Below are positions 3,349-23,126 of a stretch of 24,940 bases of DNA, piece by piece (the first letter of the stretch is position 1; each line of letters starts with the position of its first letter). The position numbers and the translations under genes are program-made. This DNA is from a virus: IMG/VR virus record IMGVR_UViG_3300032084_001302, positions 1 through 24,940 of that record; one strand, 5' to 3'. The notes beneath the pieces were generated by a model that was given only the letters and a program-made list of their open reading frames with translations, was not told the origin of the DNA and made no database searches.

Positions 3349-4338
3349 ATGGCAATATCAAATGACGTATTATCATCGACCCTCCGTATTTTATTGGATG
3401 AAGAAGTCGATAACCTTTTTAAGGCTGTCCCTCTTCTCGAAGAAATGCGTAAAGGTGGCGGTGTTGAAACATACGATGGTGGTCAAAAACTAGACGTACC
3501 ACTTATCTTAGCGGAACACAGTTCCATAACACAACTCTCTAACGGCTATGAGCCGGTAAATCTCGCAGTTAAGGATGCACTTCGTAATGCTTCTTTCAAC
3601 TGGTGTGATTTTGTCGCTCCTGTTGTTATTACTAAAAAAGAAGAACTCTCAAACAAAGGGCCTCGTGCTATCGTTTCTATCGCAGAAGCGAGAATGAAGT
3701 CAGTTATGGGATTACTACAACGTGAAGTTGAAAAGCAACTTGTCGCTGGATCTTCTACAGTACTTTCAGATTTGAATACCCTTCGGGCTTCAACTACTGC
3801 ACGTGCTAACGGTGGATTCTTGGCTGGTGCAAACTACGGTTCTCAAACAGGTACTGTTGGTGGTATTGATACCTCAGTATTTACCACATATCAGAACCAG
3901 TACAAATCATCTGCTACACTTTCTATTTCAGATATGACAGATCTTTACATTCAATGTCAAGCTTACACTCCTGGTGGAGGCTCACCTAATGTAATCATCT
4001 CTTCTGCAGAAAACTACAGAGATTACAAAGCATTGCTTTTCGCTAACGAACGCTTTATGGCTGAATCTCAGCTTGATGGTGGTCGTTTGGCTCTTATGTT
4101 CCACGGTGCTAGAATGTACTACGATCCGTTCCTTGACAGCGTAACGGATGGTACTAACGACATTCGTGCATACTTCTTAAACACAGATCACATTAAGTTG
4201 GCCTTCGATTCTTCGGCACAGTTTGAAATGGAAGATTTTGAGCACATCTCCGGATATGCTTCTAGATCTGCTAATATTTTCACTCGTATGCAGTTGTATG
4301 TTGATCACTTAGGTGCTCAAGGCTTACTTACTAAATAA
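3349..4338 (+). CDS. Major capsid protein
   Basis: 329 aa, the main shell subunit. It has a mixed alpha/beta composition: an N-terminal helical arm (residues 1-35), the TYDGGQKLDVPL strand region, a long helix (AEARMKSVMGLLQREVEKQL) like the spine helix of HK97-fold coats, a Gly/Ser/Thr-rich central region, and a C-terminal half with SPNVIISSAENYRDYKALL and an aromatic-rich beta segment near the end. The size fits HK97-fold coats. It follows the scaffold and its strong structured leader and has a near-perfect GGAGG ribosome site. The HK97 fold is inferred from gene order and overall pattern, since coat sequences diverge widely. No N-terminal prohead-protease cleavage signal is evident. Confidence 0.88.
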   Translation: MAISNDVLSSTLRILLDEEVDNLFKAVPLLEEMRKGGGVETYDGGQKLDVPLILAEHSSITQLSNGYEPVNLAVKDALRNASFNWCDFVAPVVITKKEELSNKGPRAIVSIAEARMKSVMGLLQREVEKQLVAGSSTVLSDLNTLRASTTARANGGFLAGANYGSQTGTVGGIDTSVFTTYQNQYKSSATLSISDMTDLYIQCQAYTPGGGSPNVIISSAENYRDYKALLFANERFMAESQLDGGRLALMFHGARMYYDPFLDSVTDGTNDIRAYFLNTDHIKLAFDSSAQFEMEDFEHISGYASRSANIFTRMQLYVDHLGAQGLLTK

Positions 4339-4940: not shown

Positions 4941-6437
4941 ATGAACTTAATAGAAATGAGAAATATGGTGGCATCGATTATCGACTATGACCCTGATGTG
5001 CAGTCATATCGAGATGAAATAAACCGCTATATAAACGAAACATATCGCAACTGGTTCTGCTCACGTCCTTATGAGTTTTCTCAGAAGACGGTTGATGTTT
5101 TTTGTATGCCAGATTGTTCAATACCAGCCACATCCACAATACAAGGATCTAACTCTACTATCAGAAATAATATTGAGGCTAATGCAACACTTGATAAAAC
5201 AGATAGTGAAGATGTTGGATTCGTACAAAGATTTAAACACTCACATGAAGGATCGATTATCATCGTAACGAATGATGATGAGGTGTCAAACAACGGTACA
5301 TACATTATTGACAAGGTTGATTTTGGTGGTAATGAAGTTTATGTATCAAAACTAAGCAGCACACCACAGGTTGATTGGGCAGGTACTGCTTCAACAGTTG
5401 TAGCAGGATCGGTTCAACAAAGATTTATGACCCTTCCATCAGATTGTATTGATATACTTTCTGTATCGATTAGAAACTTAAATGAAGGTGTTGCTGGATC
5501 TAGCACAAATGCACTAGGTAATATCTACAATCTCACAAGAAGAAAAGACACAGAACTAAATCTTCGCTTTGACTTACAAGGTACGCCTACAGATTTTGTT
5601 GTTTATGACGGCTATCCAGAGCACACAATAGATATCGACCAGTTCACGCCACGTTCAGGTAAAGATTTCAATGTCGATACAACATCAGCCACACCAGGCT
5701 GGCCTCAGGGCACATACGAGTTTAAGATGTCATATGTTTGGCGTGGTGTCGAAAGTAAGTTATCTGATGCACAAGAACTAGTAATAGCGGCAGGAAATAC
5801 AATACCACGTTTCAATACAGAAGATACAACACGACAAGGTTTTAAAGGCCTTCGTAAAAAGTTTTATGTTCGACTAAAATCAATCACAGGTAAAGATGGT
5901 TCAACACACGAAGAGAAGTTTTTCCGTGATCTATCAACTGTGTATAGTAAAACATCACCTAATACAGGTGCTTCACAGTTTAACTTCTTCTTAATCGATG
6001 ATGATGAAACAACAAACGCTTGGCCACAAGCAACAATACAGATCGATTCTACAGCAGATCTTTACAGATATGCTAGACAAGAAGTAAATCTTGGCAACAA
6101 AAAGAGAATAAGATTATATCCACGTCCAGGTACGCAAACACCGATAGAGATCAGATACATCTTTACACCTCAACTGTTGAAAGATGACTATGATAAACCA
6201 TCCTGTCCAGATGGCACACATAGATACCTTGTTTATCGTACCTGTGAAGAAACATTTATGAAACATAACAATCCTGATATGGCAGATTATTACAGAAAGA
6301 AAGCTGATAAAGAACTTCTAAAAATAGATAACAAGTACTTAACACAACGCAGCGCTTATTACATCAAAGAAGGATACATCGCCGGCCCGCTTCGAGTCAA
6401 GCCTTATCAGACATTGACTAAACTACCGGATGCATAA
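4941..6437 (+). CDS. Head-tail adaptor-like tail protein with a fibronectin-III-like insert
   Basis: 498 aa. The N-terminus (MNLIEMRNMVASIIDYDPDV, then helices ending in YRNWFCSRPYEF) matches the small helical adaptor pattern seen where the tail docks under the portal. The segment QRFMTLPSDCIDILSVSIRN and the C-terminal part (IRLYPRPGTQTPIEIRYIF, then a helix with RTCEETFMKHNNPDMADYYR) fit the same family type. In the middle, residues about 250-340 form an Ig/fibronectin-like beta module (YEFKMSYVWRGVESKLSD), also seen in the next gene. It opens the tail operon after the terminator, and its stop overlaps the next start (TAATG). The adaptor role is inferred from motif pattern and order. Confidence 0.65.
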   Translation: MNLIEMRNMVASIIDYDPDVQSYRDEINRYINETYRNWFCSRPYEFSQKTVDVFCMPDCSIPATSTIQGSNSTIRNNIEANATLDKTDSEDVGFVQRFKHSHEGSIIIVTNDDEVSNNGTYIIDKVDFGGNEVYVSKLSSTPQVDWAGTASTVVAGSVQQRFMTLPSDCIDILSVSIRNLNEGVAGSSTNALGNIYNLTRRKDTELNLRFDLQGTPTDFVVYDGYPEHTIDIDQFTPRSGKDFNVDTTSATPGWPQGTYEFKMSYVWRGVESKLSDAQELVIAAGNTIPRFNTEDTTRQGFKGLRKKFYVRLKSITGKDGSTHEEKFFRDLSTVYSKTSPNTGASQFNFFLIDDDETTNAWPQATIQIDSTADLYRYARQEVNLGNKKRIRLYPRPGTQTPIEIRYIFTPQLLKDDYDKPSCPDGTHRYLVYRTCEETFMKHNNPDMADYYRKKADKELLKIDNKYLTQRSAYYIKEGYIAGPLRVKPYQTLTKLPDA

Positions 6438-8611
6438 TGAAAACACCAGGCAAGCTAGAAATAAAACCTCTGTTAGGAATAGATGAACGCATACCAGCAC
6501 CATCTAACTCAACTATACTTTTAGAGAACTGGACGTACGACGCCCATACTAAGACGTGGAACAACTTTCTAGGTTTCGAGGAGTATTTTCACAAGACAAA
6601 TCGTCCGTATGATTCTGCAGTAGGCCTCATTTACGACAACAGCACTGTGGATTCTATCTATGTTTATCAGCGTCATAACTCATCACAACAGTGGGTTTTG
6701 TTTGAGCAAGAGGGTAAGTTAAAATACTTGATACCGAGTGCAGGTCAAGCAGCAAATCAAGTGGCACAGACACTAGAAACAGAGCGACACGTACCTGGTA
6801 TTCAAGAAGCACACACAAACTATACACCGTACGGTCGATATGTCATCATAACTAACGGCATTGACGGCCCACTTAAGTATCGAGGTGGTGATCGAATCTT
6901 TCCACTTGGCTGGGATAGACGACCAGGCACACCAGATGTTATCACACCAGACAACTTTAATAACGATGTAAAGCCACTTAACTATGTCGAAGCAACATCA
7001 AACTTTGAGTTAGGAAACGACGAGTTAGAAGGTAGTGGCACTTTTAAATCACAGTTTTTTGAAGGTGTCGGATTTACCACAGGATCAGATGGTGATAATG
7101 AATATCGATACAGGATTAGCTTTATAAATGAAGCAGGATCAGAATCGCCACTATCAGAACCTACACCGAAGATTGTCTGGCAAACACTAGATATTGACAA
7201 AGGTACAAACACATATGCTAATCGTGCCTGCCCTGTTATGCAGATACCCACAGGGCCTACAGGAACCATAGCCAGAAGGCTTTACCGGACAAACAATGGT
7301 GGATCCACATTTAACTTCTTAGAGACAATCACAAACAACACAGATGAAATCTATGTGGATTACAGAGAAGACACACAACTAGGAGCACAAGCACCTAACG
7401 ATAGTGATAGTGTCATATTTCCTGCACTAGGTGGTCGTTTTACTGCAACATTTAAGAACTGTTTATTTATTGACGGAGGTATAGCTGATGGATCGAGGTT
7501 GTACTTTAGCCAGCCTAATCAACCTGATACATTTAAGGATTCTAACTTCTTCGATGTTGGAACAAGAGAAGGCGGAGACATTACGGGTTTTGAGGTGTAT
7601 TACAACTCACTTCTAGTATTTAGAGAACAAGCTATCGATCTGATCCGTGGTGATGCTGTAAATGGTTTCGAACTAGTACCTTTTGTCGCTGGAATAGGTA
7701 CTCAATCACATCATGCTATTGTAAATGTACCGACAATAGGTATCATGTTTTTTGGACAAGATGGTATATACAGCATCAGCGGTGGATTGGATGGTGGATC
7801 AAACTTAAACATACAAAAAATCAGTGATCCTATACAACAATACATTGAAAGAGTTAGTTTGGATGGATTACCTTCAGTCATATCGATTTATTCTAGCCAG
7901 TGGAGAGAAGTACATTTCTATGCACCACTTGATGACGGTAATCAACTAACACACGGTATCATCTATCACCTAGATTCAGGCACATTCTCTATCAGAAACA
8001 ACAAAGATTTTGGTATCAACTGTATCACAACAGATCGTGATGCAAACTGTATATTTGGTAGATACAAAGATCCAGAAGATGCAAATCAGATTATGCGTGG
8101 TATATTTGTCCTCAGCAAGAATAGACGGTATGGCACAATACAAGAAGGTAGTGGAGAAGGTGCGACATTTCCAGATCAGCCTGCAGGTATATCAACAATC
8201 AGAACACAATGGTTAGATTTTGGACAACCATTTGTAAAGAAACAAATCAAGTATGTGTATTTGTATGCACTAACCACAGGTAATCAAACACCTCGTGTAG
8301 GTTTTTACAAAGACAGAGATTGGGGTGAAGAATATGAAGCACCAGGTAAAATCATGCAGAGAGCAGATCACTTCTATCAAAAGGTTTATGAACCTGTAGA
8401 TCCAGATTTAGAAGACAGTCAAGCACTGTGGGGTACTGCAAAATGGCAAGATAAACTTTTGACAGAGATTAGATATCCTGTAGAGATGAATGGTGCTGCT
8501 TCAACGTTCGCTATGGAAATAATAGCAGACGAAGCAATGATAATCATGGGATACGCAGTAGAATACACAGCAAAAGGTACAGAAACCATCAAAGGTAGAG
8601 GAAACAGATAA
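6437..8611 (+). CDS. Large tail nozzle / stabilisation-type beta-propeller protein
   Basis: 724 aa. The sequence is rich in beta strands with recurrent propeller-like turns. Typical segments are an N-terminal IPAPSNSTILLENWTYDAHT (binding-site naming in such proteins), YTPYGRYVIITNGIDGPLKY, the central LGGRFTATFKNCLFIDGG with RLYFSQPNQPDTF, then EVYYNSLLVFREQAIDLIRG and GIMFFGQDGIYSISGG. These match the pattern of podovirus nozzle or tail-stabilisation proteins (P22 gp10-like or T7 gp12-like role), which form the hexameric tube end below the adaptor. Residues about 219-320 form a fibronectin-III-like insert (YRYRISFINEAGSESPLSEP). TAATG overlaps occur at both ends. It could alternatively be a tail-tube spike, but the adaptor plus propeller order favours a nozzle. 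Confidence 0.68.
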   Translation: MKTPGKLEIKPLLGIDERIPAPSNSTILLENWTYDAHTKTWNNFLGFEEYFHKTNRPYDSAVGLIYDNSTVDSIYVYQRHNSSQQWVLFEQEGKLKYLIPSAGQAANQVAQTLETERHVPGIQEAHTNYTPYGRYVIITNGIDGPLKYRGGDRIFPLGWDRRPGTPDVITPDNFNNDVKPLNYVEATSNFELGNDELEGSGTFKSQFFEGVGFTTGSDGDNEYRYRISFINEAGSESPLSEPTPKIVWQTLDIDKGTNTYANRACPVMQIPTGPTGTIARRLYRTNNGGSTFNFLETITNNTDEIYVDYREDTQLGAQAPNDSDSVIFPALGGRFTATFKNCLFIDGGIADGSRLYFSQPNQPDTFKDSNFFDVGTREGGDITGFEVYYNSLLVFREQAIDLIRGDAVNGFELVPFVAGIGTQSHHAIVNVPTIGIMFFGQDGIYSISGGLDGGSNLNIQKISDPIQQYIERVSLDGLPSVISIYSSQWREVHFYAPLDDGNQLTHGIIYHLDSGTFSIRNNKDFGINCITTDRDANCIFGRYKDPEDANQIMRGIFVLSKNRRYGTIQEGSGEGATFPDQPAGISTIRTQWLDFGQPFVKKQIKYVYLYALTTGNQTPRVGFYKDRDWGEEYEAPGKIMQRADHFYQKVYEPVDPDLEDSQALWGTAKWQDKLLTEIRYPVEMNGAASTFAMEIIADEAMIIMGYAVEYTAKGTETIKGRGNR

Positions 8612-13558: not shown

Positions 13559-16500
13559 ATGGCAACACCAGGACAACTACAAACTCTGCAACCGCAAGAT
13601 TTAGACACATACATTTTTCTGCAACAGTTAAATGGTCAAAATCCAGACGGTACTTTTGTAAATCAACAAGCTGCTGATTCGTTTGTTGTGGAAAGAATAG
13701 AGTTTTATGGACAGCAAGAACAAGATCGTGCATTTTTAGAACAAGAAAGACAAAGAAAACTGGCTGAAGAAGCAGGTACAGGTATCGGTTTTGACCCTTC
13801 TACTGAAGTACCAGATCCTCCTGCCTTTCAACTAACACCAGAACAGCAACAACAAGCACGTCAATCTATTGATGCTTACATGAAGAAACGTGGCCTAGGT
13901 GCAAACCGTGAAATACCGGGCATTACACCTGATCCGCTTACAGGTGAGGTTAGAACTGGCGTGCCGATGGACGTCAATATCTTAGAAAGACGTGAAAGCA
14001 TACCATCACCTGGTGATATTCAAACACAAGCAGAAGGTACATATGCATCTATCAGACAACAGGCTGCTAATGAAGGTTTGCCTACTCGTAAAGAAGTCGA
14101 AGACATGTTGTTTATGCAGGCCAGAGAAGATTATGGTATCGAAGCATTAGAACAACTAGGTGTTATGGAACAGACAGCTGTTGAAAGTGATCTAAAGGCT
14201 GTCGCTCGACAACAATCATTTAACTACAGAACAGCCGATGACTTTGCAGATCAGAAAATATCTGGTCAGTTCGGTGTTGGGCGACCTCGTCAAGGTGGAT
14301 CACCATTCGAATCACCTCCTACACCACGCGTAGTACCTCGCGCACTAGATCCTAGGCCATTTACTGTCGGTGGTATATTACAAAGAGATCCAGAACTAGT
14401 GCGAGAGATGACGCCTACAGAAGCGATTATCGAATCTATAAAACCACAAACAATCAAAACAACAGACGAGATAAAAGAAGAAAAGGCATCAATGGATGCA
14501 GCGTCATCAGAATACATTTTAGATGTCGAAAGAAGATTAAGAGATATGAATGGTGATGCATATTTCAAGGCATCGCCACAAGTAAAACAAAGTTTGATAG
14601 ACAGTGTAATCAGAGATGACTTCGCAGATTTTGAAAAGAGATTACGACAAGAACTAACAGCAGATTACAAACTACGATACAAAGCAAACACAGGTCAAGA
14701 ACCACCACAAGATACTATCGACTCATATCTTAGAAAGGTTGTGTTTCCAGAGATGAGAAACGCTGTCATGACACAGATACCTCAAGATAATCCGATGTAT
14801 GGTGTAATCAGAAACGAACTCAATGACAAGTACAGTCGAACAGAACAAGTTAGCACACTAGATCCATTTAGTATGATGGATGTAGGTAAAGATCTGTTGG
14901 GTATGGGTATGTCAGAACTGGCAACATCAGAGACACCATTTACAGGTGAGATAACAGAATCTGTCGGTATGGCTGTCATTAGAAACCTTAACTTACCATT
15001 CAGATTAGTACTCAACCCTATTGAAGAAGTGGCTGTTGAAGGTATTATGGGTGAGCCTCCTACTGTTGAAGAACAGGTGGCAGCACACCAGAAAAGACAA
15101 AGATTTTATGATGTACCTACACGAGATCTAACAGAAGAAGTTAGTGGTTTTAGTGATACCTTTGATGCATATCTAAGAGAAGTCGCAGTCGAAAATGCTA
15201 ATGCATACGGTACTGGTAATGCTTTTGCTAACTATGCACTTGTACCTCAATCAGCAGATCAGGCTTTTGTAGCAGGTACAGCAGCAGAGATATTTTTTCC
15301 TTGGGGTACAGTGGCTAAGTTAGGGTCAAAAGGCTTGACTGGATTCGGTATGGTGGGTAGAGCTGCTCGTGCTCTGGATGTAGCAGCAGACGGTCGTGCT
15401 ATGATCTCTATCGCAGATAAGTCAGGACAACCTAGTGTTTATCGTGCAATGACAGCAGCAAAGCGACCCACACAAGTATCAGATGTTGTCGGAACTTCAT
15501 ACAACTCAGCAAACAAAATATCATATGAAGTCGCAGAAAATGTTGAAGCGTTAGATGCTGCTCGTCAATATACACATGCTATTAAGGCAGGTGATGTAGA
15601 TTTAGCAGAAGATATAGCTCGAGCAAATGCTGCAAAAGGTGGTAGATCAAAACAAATATTTGATGCTGCAACAGATGATATACCGTTAGATCAGGTACAG
15701 AGGCTAGATGATGATGATTTTGTTTTTAGTGCGCAAGGTGAAGCACTAGTAGAAACAGCATCCAAACGTTTTGATGAACTAGATAATGGCCTCAATGAAC
15801 TGGCCAAACAAAATACTGTGTATGGTGATGTTGCCAAAGAAATAACGAGAGAAGGTCGAGCACAAATCAGATTACCAAAAGGTAAAAAAGAAATAGATGT
15901 CGGTGGTCAGAAAATGATTGTTGATGACATTGAAGACATCAATCCAAGATCTTCAGCAGGTGCAACGTATGATGGAAGATTAGGGCCTCTCAATAGAAGT
16001 GGTGCTAGTACAGATCAACTAGTAGGTGCAGCAGCATCAAGATTAGCTAAGTACAACATACAAGATTATGTGGCACTAACAGATAGAATGGCAGTACAGA
16101 AAGAAGTATTTAAAGAAATCACACCATCACTAGACAAATCGATGGACATCTTTTTCGATACTGGAAAGATACCATTTGAAAATCAAACTCAACTGTTAAA
16201 GTTAGGTTTGATTGAAGGTAAAACTGCTAGACGTGATAAAGAGTTGATGCGGATCTTTGATAAAATGGAGGCTGCACACAGTAATCCAAATGCTACTATT
16301 TTTAATGTGCTAGATCCAGGTGAGCAAGTATATCTGATGAACAGATTTATTGAAGCGCGTGCTCGATCTATTGTAGGTGAAACAGCAGAAGGCGCAACTA
16401 GAGGAAGAAGAGCAGCTGTTATTGATAGAGTTGAAGGTACTGAACGTGCATTCTTACCAGAAGAGTTAAGAGCAGAAGCAGGAGCACGACCTCTCGGATC

Positions 16501-19165
16501 AGACAGAGTCGAAAGATTGACAAGAACAAGAGGTATTACAAGAGAAGGTGTTGATTTCGCACTGGCTGTAGGTAGGTATATCAAATCTATCAAACCAAGT
16601 TATGCAGCCCGTACAACAAAAGAAGTAGCAAGAGAGATAGGGTCAAAGGTACCGCTTATGCGTCGCTATGTACAACCTGTTAGTAGAACAGCAGCAGAAG
16701 CAAGACGCGTTACGAATGCTTTAGATCAGGCAAAAGAAACTGTTGTACGACTAGAACGTGCATTACCAGAAGCAATGTCTGTCTATGGTAAAAACTCAGA
16801 TAATGCAAGTAATGCTATCTATTCAATGTATGCAGTATCTCTTAAACAAGATCCGACAAACATACTTGTATCAACAGATCCGAAAGCTATGGCTGCGTTA
16901 GGTAAATCTACTAGCATACCTAAGGCAGACGTCGAAAATCTATTGAGGATTACATTTCCTAACTTACAACCTGAAGATTTAACTAAGATTAGAGGTGTTA
17001 GCAGCCCTGCAGAGTTAGAATCTCTAGCACTAGAAATATTAAGTAGTGCTCCTAGATTAGAAAAAGGTATGCTTACAATCAAGGCTGGTGTGCCAGATAC
17101 AACTAAGCCTATGATCTTATTAGCAGGAGATAACGCTGCTAAGTTCAGAATAGCAACCATTGTACAGGAAGAACTAAGTCAGGTTGTTATACCACTAAGT
17201 TATCGCGGGCTTACCAGAGAAGGACAGGATTTCATGATTGAACAAGCTGTTCGACTGGCAAGTGGTGAAGAGATGGATTTCTTCGCTTACTCAGTTAGTA
17301 AAGAGGCACAAACTCGGTATGGATTGACAGATATTTATGATGCTGAGGCTTTCGCTGATGACATTATTACAATGGCTGGTGATCTTAAAGCGCGTGGTTT
17401 TGAGTTGAATATGACACCTCGACAAATACAAGATGACATATTACAGACATTACAAGATACTGTCATACAAGGTGATGCTTCTGCTTTTATCGGTGTAGGT
17501 AGTAGAAAAGAACTGCAAGAACTAAGAGCACTATATTCAGATCCTGCTAAGTTAGGACAGTTAAGACAAAATGTAGATGACTTAGGACGAAACAATGTAG
17601 GTTTGTTAAACTGGTCGAGAAAAGTTATGGGTACATCGATGGATGACCTAAGAAGATCGTTTGTATCAGGTCAGTTAGGTGGTAAATACTATCCGAATGT
17701 ACGCTATCAAATGGAAAATATTATTACAGCACCGATTATATCATCAATCACCACACCAGGTGCTAACAGAGTGATATTACAACCTTATTTACGAAGAAAC
17801 TTTATGTCTGCTGGTCGTTCAAAAGCAGCAGCTATGGATCCACAACTAGCAGATACAAGGATACCGGGTAGTAGATACACATATCGTCAAGCAGCAAACG
17901 GTTTAAGACAAAAGAATATCGGATCGACACAGCAATCAATCAACTTAGGTGATGTTATTATTGAAGATGTCAGACAAGAAGCATTGAGATCGTCAAAAGC
18001 ATTTGGTAAAAACAACATAATCTTAGAACAGATCGATTACAATCTCAGAAACTTTGGTGGTAAAGCTAGTTATTCTAGCCCGGGTATGAGATTAGCATCT
18101 GATGTAGATTATGCGTTCAGAGAAAACCTTTACTATGGTGCATTACAAGATGGTAGAACGATCGATGAAGCAGCACAACTAGCAAAGACAGCATATTTAG
18201 ATTATGGTGCATTACCTGATATCTTCAAGAAGAAGTATGCAAGAGCACTGCTTTATTTCTCATTTACATATCGAACAGGTGTAGAAACAGCAAAGGCACT
18301 ATTCAACCCAAAAGCTGCAGCACAACTAGCAAGGTTAGCAAGAGCACACACTGCAATGGCACAGTATTATGGTGCTTACAACTATGTAGGTGATCAGACA
18401 TTACAATCATTGTGGTTGGGATCACAGGATGGATTATCAAAAGACGCAGACGAAAACTATAGATCTGTAAATCTTTACTATCGTGATCCGTGGATGGGAC
18501 AACTTATGAAAGGTGCTGAAGCACTGACTTACATAAATCAATATATGGAAGGCGACCCAGAAGTTACGCCGACTAGAACAATGCAAGGTATTCTTGACTA
18601 TGTCTATATACCTTTCTTCGACATACTCCAGGATTTAGATCCTGATTACAAAAAAGGTGTGCCACCTAAAACTATGTATCGCATCTTAAAAGCACAACAG
18701 ATGGCTGGTATGATCCCGGAATGGACACCTGACATCATACAAGCACAACTACCTAATGAAGCAGAGTTTTACTTTGATAGATACGACTTAGAAGTACGAC
18801 CTGTGGGTAAGATGGTGCCCGGTTCTCCGACATTCAACAACTATCAATACAGATTCGGATCACAAGAAGGATACAATCGATTTGTTTTAGATACAAACAT
18901 ACTGGCTGCTGCTGGTGCAAAGAGAATGGCAGATGATGCGACTGGTATGATGATAGCAGCCGGGTTGATACCACCTGGTTCAGAGTTCGGTTATCTGGAA
19001 AATGGTAATCCTGTCCTATATTTATTCTTTAGGCAGTCGCCGATGCAGATACCTAAGGATTGGGAAATGATGGATAGACGAATGAGAGCACAGCAATACA
19101 GGCTGAAAGAACTGCAAAGAACTTTCGGTGAAACACAAGATACAAAAGCCGGGAGTCAAAAATGA
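13559..19165 (+). CDS. Giant internal virion / ejection protein
   Basis: 1868 aa, the largest gene here. The N-terminal third is Gln/Pro/Asp-rich and probably flexible. A hydrophobic or amphipathic patch lies at about 577-605 (IFFPWGTVAKLGSKGLTGFG). Residues about 1544-1584 (TAYLDYGALPDIFKKKYARA, then LLYFSFTYRTG) match the aromatic core pattern near the C-terminus of very large phage proteins of the polyvalent / internal virion type, as far as I recall. No lytic transglycosylase motif is apparent at the N-terminus, unlike T7 gp16. By analogy it would be carried in the capsid and injected to form a trans-envelope channel. AAGGA precedes the ATG; the stop overlaps the next gene by ATGA. Confidence 0.7.
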   Translation: MATPGQLQTLQPQDLDTYIFLQQLNGQNPDGTFVNQQAADSFVVERIEFYGQQEQDRAFLEQERQRKLAEEAGTGIGFDPSTEVPDPPAFQLTPEQQQQARQSIDAYMKKRGLGANREIPGITPDPLTGEVRTGVPMDVNILERRESIPSPGDIQTQAEGTYASIRQQAANEGLPTRKEVEDMLFMQAREDYGIEALEQLGVMEQTAVESDLKAVARQQSFNYRTADDFADQKISGQFGVGRPRQGGSPFESPPTPRVVPRALDPRPFTVGGILQRDPELVREMTPTEAIIESIKPQTIKTTDEIKEEKASMDAASSEYILDVERRLRDMNGDAYFKASPQVKQSLIDSVIRDDFADFEKRLRQELTADYKLRYKANTGQEPPQDTIDSYLRKVVFPEMRNAVMTQIPQDNPMYGVIRNELNDKYSRTEQVSTLDPFSMMDVGKDLLGMGMSELATSETPFTGEITESVGMAVIRNLNLPFRLVLNPIEEVAVEGIMGEPPTVEEQVAAHQKRQRFYDVPTRDLTEEVSGFSDTFDAYLREVAVENANAYGTGNAFANYALVPQSADQAFVAGTAAEIFFPWGTVAKLGSKGLTGFGMVGRAARALDVAADGRAMISIADKSGQPSVYRAMTAAKRPTQVSDVVGTSYNSANKISYEVAENVEALDAARQYTHAIKAGDVDLAEDIARANAAKGGRSKQIFDAATDDIPLDQVQRLDDDDFVFSAQGEALVETASKRFDELDNGLNELAKQNTVYGDVAKEITREGRAQIRLPKGKKEIDVGGQKMIVDDIEDINPRSSAGATYDGRLGPLNRSGASTDQLVGAAASRLAKYNIQDYVALTDRMAVQKEVFKEITPSLDKSMDIFFDTGKIPFENQTQLLKLGLIEGKTARRDKELMRIFDKMEAAHSNPNATIFNVLDPGEQVYLMNRFIEARARSIVGETAEGATRGRRAAVIDRVEGTERAFLPEELRAEAGARPLGSDRVERLTRTRGITREGVDFALAVGRYIKSIKPSYAARTTKEVAREIGSKVPLMRRYVQPVSRTAAEARRVTNALDQAKETVVRLERALPEAMSVYGKNSDNASNAIYSMYAVSLKQDPTNILVSTDPKAMAALGKSTSIPKADVENLLRITFPNLQPEDLTKIRGVSSPAELESLALEILSSAPRLEKGMLTIKAGVPDTTKPMILLAGDNAAKFRIATIVQEELSQVVIPLSYRGLTREGQDFMIEQAVRLASGEEMDFFAYSVSKEAQTRYGLTDIYDAEAFADDIITMAGDLKARGFELNMTPRQIQDDILQTLQDTVIQGDASAFIGVGSRKELQELRALYSDPAKLGQLRQNVDDLGRNNVGLLNWSRKVMGTSMDDLRRSFVSGQLGGKYYPNVRYQMENIITAPIISSITTPGANRVILQPYLRRNFMSAGRSKAAAMDPQLADTRIPGSRYTYRQAANGLRQKNIGSTQQSINLGDVIIEDVRQEALRSSKAFGKNNIILEQIDYNLRNFGGKASYSSPGMRLASDVDYAFRENLYYGALQDGRTIDEAAQLAKTAYLDYGALPDIFKKKYARALLYFSFTYRTGVETAKALFNPKAAAQLARLARAHTAMAQYYGAYNYVGDQTLQSLWLGSQDGLSKDADENYRSVNLYYRDPWMGQLMKGAEALTYINQYMEGDPEVTPTRTMQGILDYVYIPFFDILQDLDPDYKKGVPPKTMYRILKAQQMAGMIPEWTPDIIQAQLPNEAEFYFDRYDLEVRPVGKMVPGSPTFNNYQYRFGSQEGYNRFVLDTNILAAAGAKRMADDATGMMIAAGLIPPGSEFGYLENGNPVLYLFFRQSPMQIPKDWEMMDRRMRAQQYRLKELQRTFGETQDTKAGSQK

Positions 19166-19479
19166 GTAAGAGAAGAAGAGACGTCTATAAGAAGATGGCT
19201 TGTAATAAACCACGTCGATCTAACAAACCAGGCAAAAAGAAGATGGTTAAAGGTTGTGAAGGTGGTAAATCTAAAATCATTCATTATGGAGCCAAAGGCT
19301 ATGGACATAACATCTCAAAGGGTGCTCGTAAATCATTTCGGGCACGTCATAAATGTGATCAGAAAAACAGCAAACTTAGTGCTAGATACTGGGCTTGTAA
19401 AGATTTATGGTCAGCATCATCACCTAAAAAAACAACCGGCACAAAGGGTCGGGTGGCAAAATCTAACAGGAGGAAATAA
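19162..19479 (+). CDS. Small basic cysteine-containing phage protein
   Basis: 105 aa, very basic, with cysteines at 14, 32, 65 and 79. The region KSFRARHKCDQKNSKLSARY, followed by WACKDLW, strongly recalls a family common in marine phages whose core reads KSFRARHnCD...KARYWSCKmW; I believe this is a DUF family but will not give a number. A preceding GAKGYGHNISKGAR segment is also conserved in that type. Function unknown; four cysteines and basic charge suggest nucleic-acid or metal binding. Its ATG lies inside the end of the giant gene (ATGA), so it is translationally coupled to an internal virion protein. It may be packaged or may serve in DNA handling. Confidence 0.65.
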   Translation: MSKRRRDVYKKMACNKPRRSNKPGKKKMVKGCEGGKSKIIHYGAKGYGHNISKGARKSFRARHKCDQKNSKLSARYWACKDLWSASSPKKTTGTKGRVAKSNRRK

Positions 19480-19583
19480 TGCCAAAACACTATGGAAAAC
19501 CTATGAAGAAGAAACCAGCTAAGAAACCGATGCCGAAAAAGCCGGTCAAGAAACCTGTAAAGAAAAAGAAGAAGAAGAAATGA
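19479..19583 (+). CDS. Lysine-rich 34-aa protein
   Basis: A 34-codon gene starting at the TAATG overlap with the preceding stop, with a perfect AGGAGG (19468-19473) five bases before its ATG. The product begins MPKHYGKPMKK and consists almost entirely of Lys and Pro, ending in seven consecutive Lys. Its stop overlaps the next start (ATGA). The Shine-Dalgarno and exact double coupling argue that it is expressed. MPKH-type short lysine-rich proteins occur in marine phages as far as I recall. Polyanion (DNA or RNA) binding is likely from charge only; specific function unknown. Confidence 0.6.
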   Translation: MPKHYGKPMKKKPAKKPMPKKPVKKPVKKKKKKK

Positions 19584-19792
19584 AACGGAAAAACAAAGCG
19601 AAAAGCAAACTCCCAGTTGGGTACAATGCACCACCCGGATCAGCTCGTGAAAAAGCCATTCGACGTGCAGCAAAGCTATATAAATCCGGAAACAAACAAG
19701 CAGCATTCCGTCTAAGAGAACAGATGGAGAGGAGAGAACGTGCCAAAAAAGGTTTCAAAAACAAGAAAGCCAAGTACTCGAAAAAAGGGTAA
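19580..19792 (+). CDS. Small basic helical protein
   Basis: 70 aa, Lys/Arg-rich, starting within the stop of the preceding gene (ATGA). A helical middle (GSAREKAIRRAAKLYKSGNK) is followed by REQMERRERAKKGFKNKKAK. The middle reads like a short alpha-helical repeat, with Ala and Leu alternating with basic residues. No family is recognised. It overlaps the next gene by 53 bases in another frame. Like its neighbours it could bind DNA or RNA, but this is inferred only from charge. Confidence 0.55.
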   Translation: MKRKNKAKSKLPVGYNAPPGSAREKAIRRAAKLYKSGNKQAAFRLREQMERRERAKKGFKNKKAKYSKKG

Positions 19793-20039
19793 GAAGAAAG
19801 GATCCGTAATGGAGACACTTCGCAAGAAGGCAGCAAAATCAAAGCGTTTTACAGCTTCTCAGTTAAAGAAGTCGTACGATAAAGGATTAGCAGCATATGC
19901 TTCGAGCGGTTCGAGAAAAGGTATGTCATCTCATCAGTGGGCAATGGCAAGAGTAAATAGTGTGCTTCGAGGTGGTAAAGCCCGTTCAATCGACTTTCCA
20001 TCAAAGAGCAAAAAGAAATCAACAAGGAAGAAGAAATGA
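19740..20039 (+). CDS. Small basic protein with a conserved SY.(R/K)GLAA motif
   Basis: 99 aa. The core (SQLKKSYDKGLAAYASSGSR, then KGMSSHQWAMARVNSVLRG) matches a widespread small phage family with SYnrGLAAw.sghrpG..qWAmARVNSF; I believe it is a DUF5824-like domain, but the number is from memory. The ends are Lys/Arg-rich. The start chosen is a GTG with AGGAGAG a few bases upstream, giving MPKK as in related small proteins; an ATG at 19809 is the alternative and would remove 23 residues. It overlaps the previous gene by 53 bases and the next by ATGA. Function unknown. Confidence 0.65.
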   Translation: MPKKVSKTRKPSTRKKGKKKGSVMETLRKKAAKSKRFTASQLKKSYDKGLAAYASSGSRKGMSSHQWAMARVNSVLRGGKARSIDFPSKSKKKSTRKKK

Positions 20040-20092
20040 AACAGTGCGATTGTGATTGTCCGTGTTGTAAGGATGGACAATGTCAAAAATAA
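20036..20092 (+). CDS. 18-aa cysteine-rich peptide
   Basis: The ATG at 20036 is created by an ATGA overlap with the preceding stop, with AAGGAAG about nine bases upstream. It encodes MKQCDCDCPCCKDGQCQK, six cysteines in 18 residues (CxCxCxCC....C), reminiscent of metallothionein-like or zinc-knuckle peptides. The next gene starts before its stop, overlapping by 13 bases. Expression is suggested by exact coupling to both neighbours, since overlaps of this kind recur through the cluster. Metal or redox binding is only a guess; a regulatory leader for the next gene is an alternative. Confidence 0.5.
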   Translation: MKQCDCDCPCCKDGQCQK

Positions 20093-20280
20093 TACAATGG
20101 ATAAACGAGAATAAAATCGGTGTAATGTTTATGGGTGGTGCCATAGTAATAAGTACCGCATATGGAACATGCACTCTAGAACCAACGTCGTCATCAGGAG
20201 AAGACAATGCCGTACAACAAATACAGCCCGAAGCAGAAGAAGCTAGCATCTCTAGCTCCGCCTCGGAAGAAGATAACTAA
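20080..20280 (+). CDS. Small single-pass membrane protein
   Basis: 66 aa. Residues about 13-30 (IGVMFMGGAIVISTAYGT) form one hydrophobic segment after a short N-terminus (MSKIIQWINENK), followed by a Ser/Glu-rich acidic tail. One membrane-anchored helix with a short acidic exposed part fits an inner-membrane accessory protein; a spanin or holin-related role is possible, but no lipobox is present. It begins inside the cysteine peptide and is overlapped at its 3' end by the next gene in another frame. Family not recognised. Confidence 0.5.
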   Translation: MSKIIQWINENKIGVMFMGGAIVISTAYGTCTLEPTSSSGEDNAVQQIQPEAEEASISSSASEEDN

Positions 20281-20365
20281 AGCTGATCTATTGAAAGCAA
20301 GACGAAGTCGTGGTGGCAAAGCCATTCCGCGTCGTAAGGCAGTCAAGATTAGGAAAAAATCATAG
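20207..20365 (+). CDS. Small basic 52-aa protein overlapping the membrane-protein gene
   Basis: A 52-codon gene in a second frame over the 3' end of the 66-aa gene (74-base overlap). AGGAG (20196-20200) lies six bases before its ATG. The product starts MPYNKYSPKQKKLASLAPPR and continues with KKITKADLLKARRSRGG and a Lys/Arg-rich end. Short proteins with MPxxKYSxxQKKLAxxAPPR and KIT.aDf patterns recur in marine phages in my recollection, which supports a real gene. Function unknown; basic charge again suggests nucleic-acid binding. Confidence 0.6.
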   Translation: MPYNKYSPKQKKLASLAPPRKKITKADLLKARRSRGGKAIPRRKAVKIRKKS

Positions 20366-20390: not shown

Positions 20391-20837
20391 ATGCAAAGAC
20401 AACAAATAAGAGAAAGCAATCAAGTTGGGTGGGCTGATGCAGTCAATAACAACGCCGAGTTTGATGCTAACTGGGATAAGACAGAATATGGTGAGTTTCT
20501 CATCAGTGATCTAGATTTAGCTTATGCAAATGGACAATGTGTAATCGAACAGATTATGATATCAGGTGCAGCAGGACAACAACCTGCTGAGGCAGACAAA
20601 GAAGCGGTAGAAATACTCATCTCATCTGCTAGTTCATTCGCACAAGACAAGATCATCGGTGTGTTCAAAGGATTATATTCAGCAGGATTGATTGACACAG
20701 ATAAGAGATTATGTTCTTTCTCACCAAGATGTGCTGTAGCACTAGGTGTGAATGATACAATCTATTTCACAGTTAAATGTCCATCTGGTGATGCATTGAC
20801 AGCAGATAATGCAGTTATCACAGTATCACAATCATAG
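20391..20837 (+). CDS. Beta-rich structural protein of unknown function
   Basis: 148 aa. The start is taken at ATG 20391 because AGGAGG (20376-20381) lies nine bases upstream; an in-frame GTG at 20310 would only add codons overlapping the preceding gene. The N-terminus (RESNQVGWADAVNNNAEFDA) is followed by alternating polar/nonpolar strands (QCVIEQIMISGAAG; DTIYFTVKCPSGDAL; AVITVSQS). A small beta-sandwich tail or head-surface protein fits. It begins the fibre-type block, which has ordinary spacing and its own Shine-Dalgarno rather than overlaps. Family not recognised. Confidence 0.55.
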   Translation: MQRQQIRESNQVGWADAVNNNAEFDANWDKTEYGEFLISDLDLAYANGQCVIEQIMISGAAGQQPAEADKEAVEILISSASSFAQDKIIGVFKGLYSAGLIDTDKRLCSFSPRCAVALGVNDTIYFTVKCPSGDALTADNAVITVSQS

Positions 20838-20875: not shown

Positions 20876-21319
20876 ATGCCAAAACAAGGTTCGTTTGTAC
20901 ATCGAACGATAAAAACAGGTTTGAGCGTGGCGTATGGAACGTCATTCTCTACCTCAACAACAACATTTCTAAATCTTCTTAGTGCAGATAGCAGAGCTGG
21001 ATACAAACCACCCGGGAAACCAGGTGATGCGTTTCAGGGATCATTACAACTTATTAGAATACGCGGTACAGCCGCAGGAGGTGCATCACAGATTACCATT
21101 AAAGGGACGTGGGATTCCGCAGGTAAAGAGTTGATTGTTGCACCAACAACTGTTGTGCTGTCAAACGATATGTTAGACGTGAATGGGGATGGACAACACT
21201 CCACAACTTTACTAATCGATGCTTACGTTGCCAATGATACAGATGCTCTTTACTTGTGGTTAAAGACAGATTCGGGTACATTTACGGTTTCGGAGTATGA
21301 GATAACTTGGGTAGAATAG
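20876..21319 (+). CDS. Beta-rich structural protein of unknown function
   Basis: 147 aa. AGGAGG precedes the ATG. A short basic start (MPKQGSFVHRTIKTG) is followed by several strands (FQGSLQLIRIRGTAAGGAS; ITIKGTWDSAGKELIVAPTT; YLWLKTDSGTFTVSEYEIT) with a DVNGDGQ loop that could be a Ca2+-binding turn (Asp/Asn/Gly spacing), which is only suggestive. Length and pattern suit a compact carbohydrate-binding-like or decoration sandwich. It lies between the 148-aa gene and a 97-aa fibre-domain gene, consistent with an exposed virion part. Family not recognised. Confidence 0.55.
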   Translation: MPKQGSFVHRTIKTGLSVAYGTSFSTSTTTFLNLLSADSRAGYKPPGKPGDAFQGSLQLIRIRGTAAGGASQITIKGTWDSAGKELIVAPTTVVLSNDMLDVNGDGQHSTTLLIDAYVANDTDALYLWLKTDSGTFTVSEYEITWVE

Positions 21320-22883: not shown

Positions 22884-23126
22884 ATGGAACAGATAATCAT
22901 GGAACTAGCACCATTTCTCAGTGGCCCTGCTGCTGCAGTAATCGTTGCGTTGTATATGAACCGTCAGTTTATTTCTTTCACAAACTCTTCAATCAATCGG
23001 ATACTTGATGATGCTGAAAAGGATAGAGAACTATTCAAAGAAGCCATCACTAAAATCGACCAGAGATTGTATTTTCTAGAAGAACAAATGAAAGACATAA
23101 AATCTGAGTTGAGAAGAAAGGAATAA
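22884..23126 (+). CDS. Holin-like small membrane protein with coiled coil
   Basis: 80 aa. One N-terminal hydrophobic segment (FLSGPAAAVIVALYM) precedes a charged helical region (LDDAEKDRELFKEAITKIDQ, then RLYFLEEQMKDIKSELRR) that reads as a coiled coil. One membrane helix followed by a coiled coil is the layout of BhlA-type holin-like peptides and is also common for small phage lysis or membrane proteins. TGGAGG precedes the ATG. No endolysin is seen nearby in this window, so the lysis call rests on architecture only; a membrane-bound structural cofactor is an alternative. Confidence 0.5.
   Translation: MEQIIMELAPFLSGPAAAVIVALYMNRQFISFTNSSINRILDDAEKDRELFKEAITKIDQRLYFLEEQMKDIKSELRRKE

Follow-up and report, generated by a model that had tools for sequence, protein, structure and literature searches.

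In a virus record of 24,940 nucleotides from an aquatic phage (IMG/VR record IMGVR_UViG_3300032084_001302; the whole stretch is referred to here as the window), we analyzed a cluster of seven small genes, A to G, all encoded on the plus strand between a giant gene for a protein of 1868 amino acids (13559..19165, plus strand) and a conserved downstream gene, I147 (20876..21319, plus strand). The first open reading frame (ORF) of the cluster, A105 (19162..19479), encodes 105 residues and consists of a viral, head-linked domain in free-standing form. It is followed by B34 (19479..19583), a lysine-rich protein of 34 residues, by C70 (19580..19792), a basic protein of 70 residues, and by D99 (19740..20039), a basic protein of 99 residues that has a GTG start and contains a DUF5824 domain. 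E18 (20036..20092) is a cysteine-rich microprotein of 18 residues, MKQCDCDCPCCKDGQCQK, F66 (20080..20280) is an acidic protein of 66 residues in which one hydrophobic segment is followed by a conserved TC motif, and the basic, 52-residue G52 (20207..20365) starts inside F. As read from the sequence, the giant/A junction is ATGA, the A/B junction is TAATG and the B/C junction is again ATGA; C and D overlap by 53 nt, D and E are joined by ATGA, and the E/F and F/G overlaps span 13 and 74 nt, respectively. These positions, lengths and junctions, including the ATGA coupling to the giant gene, are as described in an earlier sequence-only reading of this stretch, whose claim of clear Shine-Dalgarno sites should nonetheless be relaxed for C70, where our scan recognized no such site and which is coupled via ATGA.

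The five Lys/Arg-rich members of that reading are A, B, C, D and G, with a lysine plus arginine (K+R) content of 33–53% (53% in B34) and net charges of +31, +18, +22, +31 and +19, respectively, whereas nearly all other genes of the window encode acidic or near-neutral products. The one membrane protein that had been proposed is F66, which its single hydrophobic segment predicts to be a small membrane protein. E18, which had been called almost pure cysteine, is indeed cysteine-rich, although only 6 of its 18 residues (33%) are cysteines.

The seven coupled ORFs are real genes. All seven, overlapping in the same ways, are also found in two related contigs, L004 and L093, and the ratio of nonsynonymous to synonymous differences per site (pN/pS), obtained from Nei-Gojobori-type counts between contigs, was low for most members. 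In close pairs, this ratio was 0.05–0.12 for A and 0.07–0.14 for B, where the lysine run is retained with silent sites almost completely changed; values of about 0.1–0.45 were found for C and D, and mostly of 0.16–0.6 for G. A, B and D, with ratios mostly of 0.05–0.3, are thus under strong constraint at the protein level. F presents the weakest case by substitution pattern, as low pS accompanied pN/pS values of 0.7–1.0 in some pairs and as it shares 74 nt with G and partly overlaps E; this should be considered ambiguous, although the sequence, the hydrophobic segment and the TC motif are still conserved. As E18 offers too few sites for such a ratio, we judged it by a census of micro-ORFs instead. 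Among 1,436 ORFs of 14–30 codons preceded by a Shine-Dalgarno site in 1.99 Mb of related loci, 11 distinct peptides contained at least 28% Cys (only distinct peptides were counted, as the fetched loci partly overlap), and all 11 lay in this same interval, within this phage group, and on the coding strand.

A105 belongs to its family both by profile (phrog_7595, 1.1e-13, and a segment of phrog_220, 2.5e-15) and by the family motifs NKP, FG/YG, F.ARH and YW. The domain is compact, with about 75 residues, and the AlphaFold model of A105 predicts a beta hairpin followed by two helices, with a mean predicted local distance difference test (pLDDT) score of 76 that is higher over residues 11–80. When this model was used as a Foldseek query, it matched ORF125 of phage ICP1 at 1.7 Å over 74 columns, as well as an XkdF protein and a protein of 1393 residues, the length of the polyprotein of Aphanizomenon phage CL131. 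No PDB entry was matched by the fold of A105, and no solved structure was matched above chance by the sequences of A and D. In several members, cysteines 14 and 32 of A are missing jointly and, as the ICP1 and cyanophage versions do not have these cysteines, they are dispensable for the fold. A105 did not match the XkdF protease family itself (Peptidase_S78_2, PF14550) at E ≤ 1, and its score against DUF5754 (PF19058) was 10.1 bits (E 0.86), below the Pfam gathering score of 27.4; the model gave weak DUF5754-type fold matches in Tunisvirus and in an iridovirus, such that any relation to this family would be distant at best.

Viral contigs encode relatives of A in at least 595 stretches. Bacterial genome collections yielded 37 loci, nearly all of which came from metagenome bins and none of which bore the title of a named isolate; this is consistent with A being a viral domain. 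The family was also matched in 14 of 16 phage records, most of which had been chosen for holding A or D. In 33 of 80 loci, in a set where some contigs are near-duplicates, A follows a T7-type portal gene (PF12236) and begins within about 70 bp of where that gene ends. A gene of about 540 codons that precedes A in many contigs had been considered as GroEL, an assignment that we rejected, as Pfam shows a T7-type portal. In four contigs that share the capsid genes of the window (L008, L014, L024 and L026), A precedes a putative scaffold gene and the gene for the major capsid protein (MCP). In three phages, the domain is built into head proteins. The CL131 polyprotein (A profile match 1.8e-17) consists of portal (60–419), A (529–608), InPase and MuF parts; gp102 of Aeromonas phage 2L372D, encoded between portal and MCP, contains A (83–156) followed by an XkdF protease (176–287; PF14550, 2e-20); and ICP1 gp125, annotated as a capsid protease, contains A (189–269; 1.2e-8) after the protease. 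The two protease fusions thus present opposite domain orders. A review of ICP1 assigned Gp125 to scaffold degradation or removal (PMC9040626). Further to these, A lies between minor head protein and coat genes in cyanophage KBS-S-2A and forms the end of the late operon in SIO1 and P12053L. Exceptions to the head context should be noted, as A adjoins GroEL in Flavobacterium elemo phages and lies near tail or other genes elsewhere. Also found was a single ORF of 473 residues in which DUF5872 (PF19197) is fused to the A domain (L022:4864-6285). Considering these several independent fusions and neighbourhoods, the association of A105 with the phage head is well supported, and the link to the capsid that had been suggested for the whole cluster is strengthened, for this member, by unrelated phages in which the domain adjoins or is fused to genes for portals and capsid proteases.

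Along with A, D is the second member that recalls a small family widespread in marine phages, as had been proposed, and relatives of G52 recur in other phages as well, near A or C-D; the cultured phage HTVC106P, for example, contains free-standing A and G. D99 matched DUF5824 (PF19141) with 39.8 bits (E 6.1e-10), above the gathering score of 25 bits; a full-text literature search found no paper naming this family. B, C, E and G had no match in Pfam, and tblastn searches of phage records with C70 and G52 gave none either, perhaps owing to low-complexity filtering. D is fused to A in L102, L128 and phage Melnitz (gp18), where the fusion follows a cytidylyltransferase, and C, which always adjoins D, is fused to it in L162 and L163. 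In cyanophage MED4-184, the MuF gene is followed by a C-like ORF, by D, by a 51-residue ORF termed X and by A, and X, a C-like ORF and D are grouped in HTVC111P with A elsewhere, where it should be considered that the C-like assignments are weak (E 0.012 in HTVC111P and none above threshold in MED4-184). X is a His-containing basic domain of about 48 residues with an HHS.KHM motif that travels with C and D, with copies at L015:9106-9384, L027:3897-4166, L089:5719-5832, L007:4887-4970, L166:6210-6365 and L165:5613-5795; it is fused to a B-type ORF in L015 and L027, and in L089 and L007 it separates B from C. Members of the cytidylyltransferase family to which D plus A is fused in Melnitz were detected in virions of S-SM1 (PMC3037559) and of S-CREM2, in the latter case with possible co-purification noted by the authors (PMC10665884). 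We considered this virion-detected family (T4-GC190) as a carrier of D or A, but the member checked, in Syn33, contains neither, and the detections therefore support packaging only indirectly. From their linkage, from the fusion with A in the case of D and from their composition, B, C, D and G would also be head-associated.

The interval between the giant gene and I147 is a conserved slot in the late (structural) operon. The seven-gene set recurs there in about a dozen other contigs, the closest relatives having identical overlaps, and the frames are found beside the giant gene in most relatives, so that the cluster withstands the refutation set out in the earlier reading, namely a lack of the frames or of their Shine-Dalgarno sites in relatives with the same large gene. 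As our first loci had been fetched through A or D, sampling was redone via I147, which serves as an independent anchor, and via the C-terminal part of the giant protein. The I147 sample covered 15 distinct intervals (two pairs of equal match score were counted once), of which 11 contain A, 10 contain D and 10 contain an E-type peptide. The cluster proteins are better conserved (A 68–87%, D 63–90%) than the adjoining giant protein (28–56%). Gene order varies, being A-E-F-G-C-D-B in L015 and L027 and A-E-F-B-C-D in L010 and L186, with C and D adjoining in every order seen. Where members are missing, the cysteine peptide can be the sole one present (L187), and the slots of L177, L180 and L187 hold other Lys-rich ORFs. 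An HNH-like motif (DH.RP.SKGG...N) was observed in small basic ORFs that fill the slot of relatives without A to D (L180:4744-4965 and L187:4438-4713). Over 17 intervals, 49 of the 89 ORFs preceded by a Shine-Dalgarno site contained at least 30% K+R, compared with 1 of 134 ORFs of 15–130 residues elsewhere in the same loci; the Fisher value of 2e-23 for this enrichment overstates independence, as the contigs are related. The suggestion that the cluster might be an early host-takeover set made late finds no support, as its context is the structural operon.

The giant protein itself, whose homologues adjoin the cluster in relatives, had no match in Pfam or PHROG searches, and we infer from its size and position only that it is an internal virion protein. 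A single-sequence search of viral contigs with its C-terminal part and a tblastn search of phage records with the whole protein gave no matches; homologues were recovered only when an alignment of the C-terminal part served as query, and none was present in the bacterial genome contigs searched. Other genes of the window encode a portal-like protein (49-1230), the MCP (3349-4338; phrog_9953, 5e-28), an SU10-adaptor-like protein (4941-6437; PF24175, 1.7e-10) and a protein that matches internal virion proteins (6437-8611; phrog_511, 7e-10). Beside the cluster, an acidic ORF of 148 residues (20391-20837) is 91% identical in L004 and 37–54% identical in other relatives and is missing in some, and it thus evolves unlike its neighbours. 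An ORF of 80 residues (22884-23126), in which a hydrophobic segment near the N-terminus is combined with a charged C-terminal part, is highly conserved (up to 98%) in relatives and is possibly a holin-like lysis protein.

E and F call for separate consideration. E, conserved in L004, L093 and L089, precedes F wherever both are present, usually directly upstream and overlapping or abutting it, and L009 and L086 contain F without an intact E. Cysteine-rich micro-ORFs are also found without F (L007:4186-4239, L185:2513-2587 and L187:4713-4787), two of them directly before A. The non-cysteine residues of E are partly conserved, with CPCCK.G.C found in five contigs. Judged by such sequence features, E18 is a new family of conserved cysteine-rich microproteins, and its Cys pattern allows a guess at metal binding of the metallothionein-like kind. 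Between contigs, positions 20036-20200 of the window, covering E and the 5' part of F, show a silent-site pS of 0–0.4, which is lower than in most flanking genes (up to 0.9) and suggests that the E-F block was exchanged by recombination or is under extra constraint. An additional RNA-level role of this segment found no support when tested, nor was any RNA structure supported (z −1.5, with an unfavourable covariation term). Given their linkage, E and F may be head-associated too.

Taken together, we propose that the slot between the giant gene and I147 holds small head-associated proteins made late in infection, a reading whose chances we would put at about even. A105 would most likely act in the prohead, docking at the portal, scaffold or core region, given that, elsewhere, its domain forms part of a portal-MuF polyprotein and of proteases for capsid maturation. 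The basic proteins B, C, D and G would most likely enter the prohead with A105, would use their Lys/Arg tails to bind the packaged DNA and may exit with it through the phage tail, alongside the giant protein. F would be a small membrane protein, which the cysteine-rich microprotein E usually accompanies, any role of the two in the head being conjectural. More tentatively, and as a possibility that we would not favor at present, the heads of marine short-tailed phages may receive a modular kit that combines small basic proteins and a membrane protein with a new family of cysteine-rich microproteins of 16–24 residues, all delivered with a giant ejection protein; the A domain, which is widespread among aquatic phages, would then direct the kit into the prohead. 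Several points weigh against head association and should be considered here: L177, L180 and L188 lack all seven genes; A is located upstream of the terminase gene in HTVC111P and D after the lysozyme gene, so that the set is not obligatory; no proteomic detection of free-standing A to G proteins was found; fusion of A to protease and portal indicates head assembly and not retention in the mature virion; and no DNA-binding fold was identified, A105 being the protein modelled. Presence in the virion, DNA binding and ejection of the cluster proteins should thus be read as conditional.

Known systems offer analogies for such a set. The internal proteins of T4 lie in the packaged DNA, with lysines contacting phosphates, and IPI is injected (PMC3012670). 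Like IPI-IPIII, the window proteins are small, and the window set is basic and encoded in a structural gene region. T4 internal proteins carry an N-terminal capsid targeting sequence, whereas the small proteins of the window start with basic residues (e.g., MSKRRRD, MPKKV). In T4-like phages, the relatives of A, C and D begin with sequences such as MKKFSEIIEA, which we presume to resemble the capsid-targeting peptides of T4; such starts are common among neighbouring genes, and this should be regarded as a lead only. In T7, the small proteins gp6.7 and gp7.3 are ejected with the core proteins, and the basic N-terminus of gp7.3 is near the DNA (PMC11784390). The likeness of these short-tailed phage proteins to the window set lies in their being small and is one of analogy. 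T7 is not known to have a comparable cassette of seven overlapping genes or a cysteine peptide. The XkdF-type capsid proteases 2L372D gp102 and ICP1 gp125 share the A105 domain by sequence and, for ICP1, also by predicted fold, but A105 has no protease domain. In the CL131 polyprotein, whose architecture is of the polyvalent type (cf. PMC5512222), A lies between the portal and MuF domains, whereas A is a separate gene in the window and its neighbours are separate small proteins; polyvalent proteins contain several domains per polypeptide, and those of the window are single small ORFs. By analogy, the cassette would belong to a known kind, that of small and basic phage proteins associated with the head; most unusual in it are the A domain, in that it is repeatedly attached to genes for portals and proteases, and the conserved cysteine-rich microprotein.

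The closest rival to head-associated proteins is that A and its partners are prohead assembly factors, serving in portal nucleation, scaffold or protease recruitment or packaging charge balance, that are later released or degraded and are absent from the mature particle. The fusion of A to capsid proteases, which work in the prohead, the assignment of Gp125 to scaffold removal and the position of solo A genes beside portal or scaffold genes all argue for such a role; in this lineage, however, the set adjoins the giant gene rather than portal or scaffold genes, and neither the membrane protein F nor the cysteine peptide E is readily explained, such that we give this explanation a modest chance. 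The same portal and protease connections make it improbable that the products are late-made non-virion proteins that act in the dying host, with the basic members binding nucleoid or ribosomes, F serving at the membrane and E in metal or redox chemistry, even though the basic composition and the membrane protein would suit this proposal and detection in virions is not known.

One may also regard the slot as an accessory hot spot in which unrelated small genes gather behind the giant gene with no joint function. The differing gene orders (as in L015 and L027), the members missing from some contigs and the replacement of the set by HNH-like or other Lys-rich ORFs in L177, L180 and L187 are what such a hot spot would produce. 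Nonetheless, the replacement ORFs are also basic, C and D are adjacent and at times fused, A and D are fused in three cases (L102, L128 and Melnitz), and D, A, the X domain and a C-like ORF stand together in cyanophage MED4-184, and we find a mere hot spot quite unlikely. A further proposal concerns E only, namely that it is a translational attenuator, a leader peptide of cysteine codons that tunes F and is not itself functional. E is short and cysteine-rich and usually lies just upstream of F, as this would require, but the partial conservation of its other residues, its occurrence without F (before A or elsewhere) and the lack of a supported RNA structure leave this proposal doubtful.

Should the slot indeed hold head-associated proteins, the A domain would provide a common sequence mark for small proteins of the phage head that are usually left as 'hypothetical', and a single prohead domain would link marine podophages, cyanosiphophages, T4-like phages and ICP1-like phages. 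A conserved family of cysteine-rich microproteins, too short for most gene callers, is added, and specific proteomic tests become possible in phages that are already cultured.

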